Assembly (NCBI RefSeq): GCF_003056355.1
Contig: NZ_PYVW01000005.1
Span: forward strand, 62,001-126,000
Direction of reading: 5' to 3'
From: Devosia naphthalenivorans
GTDB taxonomy: Bacteria > Pseudomonadota > Alphaproteobacteria > Rhizobiales > Devosiaceae
DNA: 64,000 nt
Shown here: piece by piece, positions 36,317-36,429 of the stretch
Layout: each line of letters starts with the position of its first letter
Position numbering within the stretch: position 1 is the first letter of the stretch
Notes under the pieces: generated by a model
Databases searched by the model: none
Seen by the model: only the letters and a program-made list of their open reading frames with translations
Told to the model about the DNA's origin: nothing
Made by a program: the position numbers and the translations under genes

Positions 36317-36345
36317 TTGACCCTGTTGCTGCACAAAAATAATAA
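36317..36345 (+). promoter_or_regulatory. Promoter of the tRNA-Cys gene
   Basis: TTGACC (36317-36322) and TAATAA (36340-36345) are exactly 17 bases apart. The expected start point near 36352 is just three bases ahead of the tRNA. The match is good for sigma-70 and suggests the tRNA is expressed. Confidence 0.6.
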
Positions 36346-36354
36346 TAGGGGCAT

Positions 36355-36429
36355 GGCCTCGTGGCGGAGGGACACGCAGGGGATTGCAAATCCCCGGACC
36401 CTTGGTTCAAGTCCAGGGCGAGGCCTCCA
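36355..36429 (+). tRNA. tRNA-Cys (GCA), atypical 13-bp acceptor plus T stack
   Basis: 75 bases including the encoded CCA. The anticodon stem GGGGA/TCCCC encloses TTGCAAA, giving anticodon GCA (cysteine), and base 73 is T, the usual cysteine identity base. The acceptor GGCCTCG pairs with CGAGGCC. The T loop is TTCAAGT. Six bases lie between this loop and the acceptor instead of five, so the T stem is CCTTGG/CCAGGG (six pairs, one T-G) with a 7-bp acceptor, or five pairs with an 8-bp acceptor whose last pair is T-G. Either way the stack is 13 pairs, not 12. The D arm has three pairs (GCG/CGC). A good promoter lies upstream. Odd enough to be a non-standard tRNA, but it could be a mildly degraded one. 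Confidence 0.72.

Follow-up and report, generated by a model that had tools for sequence, protein, structure and literature searches.

A second tRNA-Cys gene with a 13-bp acceptor/T branch in Devosia naphthalenivorans and related bacteria

The genome of Devosia naphthalenivorans (G000) carries a 75-nt tRNA-Cys(GCA) gene that deviates from the 12-bp (7/5) acceptor/T branch of canonical elongator tRNAs and is predicted to stack 7 acceptor and 6 T-stem pairs. To judge from sequence comparison, it belongs with other 13-bp tRNA-Cys genes, grouped by form, in the order of Devosia and its sampled relatives, which we take to be Hyphomicrobiales. The predicted structure of the tRNA, its status as a second gene and its apparent maintenance are well supported, and a specialised role is favoured over a drifting duplicate. 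The explanation that we prefer, at a probability of about 0.45, is that of a genuine, selectively maintained second cysteine isoacceptor, which would be charged by the ordinary cysteinyl-tRNA synthetase (CysRS), would be a poor ligand of EF-Tu, and would stand apart from bulk translation.

The window analysed here is the whole stretch of 64,000 nucleotides, in which ARAGORN reports this tRNA as the only one (Table 1). It scores 46.0 bits against the Rfam tRNA model for a gathering threshold of 29 when filters are permissive, and is nevertheless missed by a default-filter scan over the whole window. When the Rfam model is run on the whole genome, the window tRNA has the bottom score of 46 tRNA hits. 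In the Rfam alignment, C36400 and G36418 are inserted bases flanking the T-stem, one per side; as C36400 pairs with G36418, the branch comprises 7 acceptor and 6 T-stem pairs, and C36400-G36418 is taken as the added, thirteenth pair of the predicted structure. The tRNA reads GGCCTCG/CGAGGCC in the acceptor stem, GCG/CGC in the D-stem, GGGGA/TCCCC in the anticodon stem and CCTTGG/CCAGGG in the T-stem, with a 4-nt variable loop, U73 and CCA. The minimum-energy fold agrees with 7 acceptor and 6 T-stem pairs; its stability is modest (z-score -1.87, with 7/200 shuffles equalling the window tRNA), and the centroid structure retains just 3 T-stem pairs. Chance is excluded because the form occurs in 13 Devosiaceae genomes, and in 12 of these every one of the six T-stem positions is paired. 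The 13-pair stack proposed by an earlier, sequence-only reading therefore holds, as 7 + 6, on the Rfam inserts, the fold and the 13 genomes. An 8/5 branch closed by U8.G64 was considered and set aside: C46 and G64 co-occur in 13/13 Devosiaceae copies and 7/6 is preferred, U8 normally belonging to the tRNA core. The same invariance makes covariation powerless to settle 8/5 versus 7/6 for that pair. Of the G18-G19 of the D-loop, one invariant G (36371) is found across the 13 Devosiaceae copies; the window D-loop reads GGG and that of G012 also GG(G), the G18/G19 assignment being ambiguous in the window.

Table 1. Features of the second tRNA-Cys gene and its surroundings (window coordinates).
Feature	Coordinates	Strand	Basis
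Second tRNA-Cys(GCA), 75 nt, predicted 7/6 acceptor/T branch	36355..36429	+	ARAGORN; Rfam RF00005, 46.0 bits
Acceptor 5' strand, 7 bp with 36419-36425, has G2-C71 and C3-G70	36355..36361	+	
D-loop, 8 nt	36367..36374	+	Alignment of 13 Devosiaceae copies; canonical copy has 9
Anticodon GCA	36386..36388	+	ARAGORN; invariant across 13 Devosiaceae copies
T-stem 5' strand, 6 bp, partner 36413-36418	36400..36405	+	Rfam alignment, fold
T-stem 3' strand	36413..36418	+	Rfam alignment, one insert per side
Acceptor 3' strand	36419..36425	+	Fold, stem comparison
Discriminator U73 and encoded CCA	36426..36429	+	Sequence; invariant across 13 Devosiaceae copies
Sigma70-like promoter TTGACC / AATAAT, ending 8 bases 5' of the tRNA	36317..36346	+	10/12 matches
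AT directly 5' of the tRNA	36353..36354	+	Leader comparison
Upstream gene, ABC-transporter permease, PF00528	35018..35911	+	Pfam; context
Downstream gene, glucose/sorbosone dehydrogenase-like, PF07995	36638..37939	+	Pfam; context

The genome (4.49 Mb in 55 contigs) also holds a canonical 74-nt tRNA-Cys at G000:C55:110066-110139, and the window tRNA is therefore a second gene. A covariance model built from five 75-nt copies and searched in 136 Devosiaceae genomes reports the 75-nt form in 13 of them, 12 belonging to the genus of the window (75 genomes), with a score gap separating the 75-nt copies (down to 88.7 bits) from canonical genes (~77 bits). A canonical copy lies alongside in 12/13 holders, the exception being G089, which is 55% complete. 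According to a pattern scan, most of the 136 genomes have one tRNA-Cys only. Scanning named genomes for the odd T-arm returns six contigs, all of Devosia (D. equisanguinis, D. limi DSM 17137, D. submarina JCM 18935 and three MAGs), which are not additional to the 13 holders. For the order, a second covariance model built from 13 copies was applied to 397 genomes (21 of them Devosiaceae) at a threshold of 1e-15, which misses weaker forms. Outside Devosiaceae, a form of 75 or 76 nt whose T-stem has a position for the extra pair is present in 8/376 genomes: four genomes of genus g99, from another family (three copies of 75 nt, and a 76-nt copy whose T-stem contains a mismatch), and four 76-nt hits in genus g65, from a third family. 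All eight also possess a 74-nt tRNA-Cys. Among 385 genomes of the class, the window's own copy alone passes a stricter threshold, one that would miss the g65 form. A pattern scan of g65 finds the 76-nt form in 37/146 genomes among the matches listed, 31 of the 37 being seen at full length and the other six only up to the T-loop; eight further genomes beyond these 37 have two matches each, and G950, from the same scan, has another kind of second gene. The sequence-only reading had proposed a second tRNA-Cys, whose 75-base form was to be sought in relatives; the form is indeed shared, by 13/136 Devosiaceae genomes and by g99. Its opposite case, in which this would simply be the sole tRNA-Cys of the order, is excluded by the canonical gene beside nearly all odd copies and by the patchy occurrence of the form.

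Cross-species conservation, compensatory changes and a promoter kept in three genomes indicate that the gene is maintained in most holders. In the Devosiaceae alignment of 13 copies, 12 of them distinct, the paired share of stem cells is 99.2%, a value that 0/500 shuffles match. Stem cells changed on both sides number 14 for a shuffled mean of 4.4, and the covariation score is 0.206 against 0.094 in shuffles, neither being reached in 500 shuffles; two further covariation measures, the pairs with a both-side change (99/500) and the further pair types (456/500), fall within the shuffled range. The both-side changes are located in the acceptor and anticodon stems, and none is scored at a T-stem pair among the Devosiaceae copies, where the T-stem pair 48:62 is seen as U.G, U-A and C-G. 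In g65, all 32 distinct full-length genes (31 genomes) pair the six T-stem positions, G.U counted; a double change turns U-A into C-G once, and U.G is seen once. At the site common to G000 and G012, the tRNAs are identical at 73/75 positions and the fourfold sites of the adjacent gene at 66.8% (P about 5e-11), the intergenic DNA having diverged to local matches of 20-21 nt only; the G089 copy is identical to the window tRNA at 71 of 75 positions. That the gene is a drifting, unexpressed duplicate thus seems very unlikely, given this identity within diverged DNA, the compensatory stem changes and a promoter spacing conserved in three genomes, despite the patchy distribution and a few damaged copies that speak for it. 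The latter, with stem mismatches in G093 and G360 and an acceptor deletion in one of the two G280 copies, appear from their sequences to be decaying. The decay across relatives that the sequence-only reading held out as the mark of drift is therefore seen in these three copies, whereas conservation and compensation characterize most holders.

The good promoter that the same reading placed just upstream of the tRNA is also recovered, the search near the tRNA returning one such promoter for 0.2 expected. Its -35 and -10 elements occur at an equal 17-nt spacing in G000, G012 and G089, with unrelated spacer sequences. Among 13-bp copies, 48/49 distinct leaders end in AT, the exception being G076 with CT, compared with 3/79 for canonical tRNA-Cys leaders. 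This AT may mark a transcription start two bases upstream of the tRNA, or may aid RNase P on a 13-bp substrate; since the g65 leaders share descent, independent support for it comes from the Devosiaceae and g99 sites. A small ORF starting from the conserved AT and the following G was rejected, as the sequence 3' of the tRNA differs between sites. Many g65 leaders (L246-L249, L274-L317) display, by eye, the motif TTAAC(C)TTTCCG(T/C)AA ~40 nt 5' of the tRNA, and the conserved TTAA element resembles a CtrA-type site. In the window, the intergenic segment 36098-36175, 5' of the tRNA, contains inverted REP-like palindromes (ATTCCCGCGAAAGCGGGAACC and its complement). Neither of the two genes flanking the window tRNA, when tested, is a phage gene, and the downstream PF07995 gene is matched in 73/75 genomes of the genus and is therefore not a tRNA-specific partner.

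Comparison with known systems sets the window tRNA apart from each of them. Like the canonical (7/5) bacterial tRNA-Cys, it has GCA, U73, G2-C71, C3-G70, an encoded CCA and a 4-nt variable loop, but it differs by its 13-bp instead of 12-bp branch, by a D-loop of 8 instead of 9 nt, by the C38 often found in its group, and by being an additional gene. The 13-bp branch is shared with bacterial tRNA-Sec, of which it is a hallmark and the chief cause of EF-Tu avoidance. However, tRNA-Sec is 8/5, with a long variable arm, usually a UCA anticodon and SerRS identity, and the 7/6 branch, 4-nt variable loop, GCA anticodon and Cys determinants of the window tRNA rule out this identity. The staphylococcal non-proteinogenic tRNA-Gly, a second isoacceptor with an altered elbow, a 12-bp branch and a role in peptidoglycan, provides a model for another amino acid: its charging is normal, and it is withheld from EF-Tu to be used in a reaction outside the ribosome. 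Mukai et al. 2017 are said to have defined the selC* tRNA-Cys. As described in the portions of PMC7609411 that were available, it is likewise a minor isoacceptor for Cys, has U73 and GCA and departs from the canonical acceptor/T branch, its own being a modified 8/4 form, bulged at 51a, on a tRNA-Sec-like body with a longer variable arm; its hosts are anaerobes, and selB*/cysS* are linked to it in some groups. The window tRNA, in contrast, is 7/6 without a bulge and has a 4-nt variable loop, and selC* identity was rejected on branch form and variable loop. The same portions of PMC7609411 give allo-tRNAs 12-bp branches (8/4 or 9/3) and assign 13 bp to tRNA-Sec. Of the two precedents that the sequence-only reading cited for 13-pair stacks, that of tRNA-Sec thus stands and that of allo-tRNAs falls; an allo-tRNA, with SerRS identity, is ruled out here by the 7/6 form, the 13 bp and the Cys determinants.

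The case for cysteine, made at first from GCA and U73, extends to the full CysRS determinant set. U73, G2-C71, C3-G70 and GCA, which form the bacterial Cys determinant set in the part of PMC9976931 consulted, are invariant in 13/13 Devosiaceae copies and kept in all full-length 13-bp copies except the deleted G280 copy. A CysRS domain search covering 25 genomes that have an odd second tRNA-Cys and 12 that lack one reports one strong match in each of 36 of these 37 and none in G089, presumably because the latter is incomplete; the weaker hits would be other class I synthetases. The domain search finds no second CysRS in the 36 genomes with a match, so that the second tRNA, if charged, would be charged by the ordinary enzyme. 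This bears on the least probable of the explanations considered, a dedicated SelB-like elongation factor serving special codons, as proposed for selC* tRNA-Cys. Its precedents, in the available portions of PMC7609411, are the long acceptor branch by which SelB distinguishes tRNA-Sec and the second selB linked to selC* tRNA-Cys in two deltaproteobacterial groups, but the few neighbouring genes that were tested at each site include neither selB nor a second cysS, and the domain search of the 36 genomes finds no second CysRS.

EF-Tu binding of 13-bp tRNAs is described as minimal in the part of PMC11231383 consulted, and as ~100-fold weaker for bacterial Ser-tRNA-Sec than for Ser-tRNA-Ser in that of PMC7609411. 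By analogy, the 13-bp tRNA-Cys is likely excluded from EF-Tu; a 7/6 tRNA might bind better, having a normal 7-bp acceptor, as the cited binding concerns tRNA-Sec-type branches. In the preferred explanation, the tRNA would be transcribed from its own promoter and loaded with cysteine by the only CysRS of the cell, and the 13-bp branch would make it a weak EF-Tu ligand, thereby withholding Cys-tRNA from bulk translation. The withheld pool could supply cysteine to a reaction outside the ribosome, or the tRNA could be a decoder that is used slowly and only under certain conditions. No partner enzyme adjoins the tRNA in the small set of neighbours tested at each site.

U33, which forms the U-turn in decoding and is not an absolute requirement in suppressor assays, is kept in the window, in 13/13 Devosiaceae copies and in the four g99 copies. 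In g65, among the matches listed, G33 occurs in 22/37 and U33 in 15/37, on two anticodon-stem backgrounds (an example with G33 is L247:5869-5944 on the minus strand). Since U33 is intact in Devosiaceae, g99 and these 15/37, normal decoding may be possible there. Position 38 is C in 10/13 Devosiaceae copies and A in the window, G012 and G273. Charging determinants kept and decoding features lost make up a pattern that points, indirectly, to a non-ribosomal Cys-tRNA, the lost-U33 argument being drawn from g65 and the window's own family retaining U33. A wider and tentative reading, which we consider doubtful, is that Hyphomicrobiales and their phages share a second Cys-tRNA line, charged by CysRS, nearly invisible to EF-Tu and acting as a donor outside the ribosome; it would explain the loss of U33 in 22/37 listed g65 genomes alongside the retained charging determinants. 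A simpler proposal, in which this is an extra decoding tRNA-Cys whose additional pair is tolerated and whose sole effect is on dosage, draws on the intact CysRS determinants, on the U33 of Devosiaceae and g99, and on the mostly single tRNA-Cys of Devosiaceae genomes, to which added supply could be of help. We find it improbable: a duplicate would be expected to be canonical, yet what is conserved is a 6-bp T-stem and a short D-loop, 13-bp branches are disfavoured by EF-Tu, and G33 is common in g65, although the tolerance of suppressor assays to U33 loss tempers this last point.

The genomic locations of the gene bring in the main rival. The 13 Devosiaceae copies occupy about ten sites, one common to G000, G012 and G089 and, separately, one common to G018 and G003; G020/G076 and G093/G273 each have one protein family in common near the tRNA, in a different arrangement. 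Such a number of chromosomal sites fits mobility. In this rival, the gene is a phage-type tRNA-Cys, which phages and other mobile elements would carry so that Cys codons stay readable once a host defence or a toxin has cut the normal tRNA-Cys; its altered elbow and its anticodon loop (C38) would make it a poor nuclease target, and the window copy would be domesticated or stranded. Phage tRNAs reportedly escape via the anticodon loop (van den Berg et al. 2023). Consistent with this rival, the G093 copy lies in a prophage, flanked by helicase/primase and HNH/terminase genes, and the G080 copy in another, adjoining an endolysin gene and an antirepressor-type gene; one neighbour in G076 matches an uncharacterised phage family. 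Moreover, the viral-collection contig L174 (IMGVR_UViG_3300012862_000041) carries a related 75-nt tRNA-Cys near an endolysin-like peptidase. Its integrase adjoins a tRNA-Gly(TCC), ~4.3 kb from the 75-nt tRNA-Cys, which suggests a provirus inserted at tRNA-Gly, with a boundary made uncertain by the host-type tRNAs close by. Other odd tRNA-Cys of 73-74 nt and 7/5 form, with a 5-bp T-stem, a D-loop without GG and a TGCAAC loop, are present in G062 (two), G009, G016 and G031 (L118-L119, L121-L123); phage endolysins are encoded close to those in G062 and G009, and the two of G062 are identical to tRNAs of two IMG/VR contigs.

At most other sites, however, the one to three neighbours tested, mostly with Pfam, return no phage family, as do five neighbours in g65 and g99 (Pfam), and A38 is kept in the window copy, G012 and G273. 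Searches of viral contigs gave zero hits with three stricter patterns, and 1 and 29 hits with two looser ones; the C38 scan among them is circular as evidence for this rival, the pattern itself having demanded C38. The phage collection yields seven records with half matches only, and the plasmid collection 74-nt matches in 4 and 5 records. On this balance we hold the phage-type origin to be rather unlikely, and retain the second, CysRS-charged isoacceptor set apart from bulk translation as the preferred explanation.

A limited literature search, including the available part of the review of Cys-encoding systems PMC8762117, returned no mention of a 7/6 tRNA-Cys; the novelty in print of a 13-bp tRNA-Cys is not established. 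As a natural 13-bp tRNA with a sense anticodon and Cys determinants, it would offer a test of how EF-Tu, CysRS, RNase P and the ribosome measure the acceptor/T branch, and it could seed orthogonal tRNA design. For the bacteria that carry it, this second tRNA-Cys may indicate a new cysteine-tRNA-dependent reaction or a defence-evasion trait.
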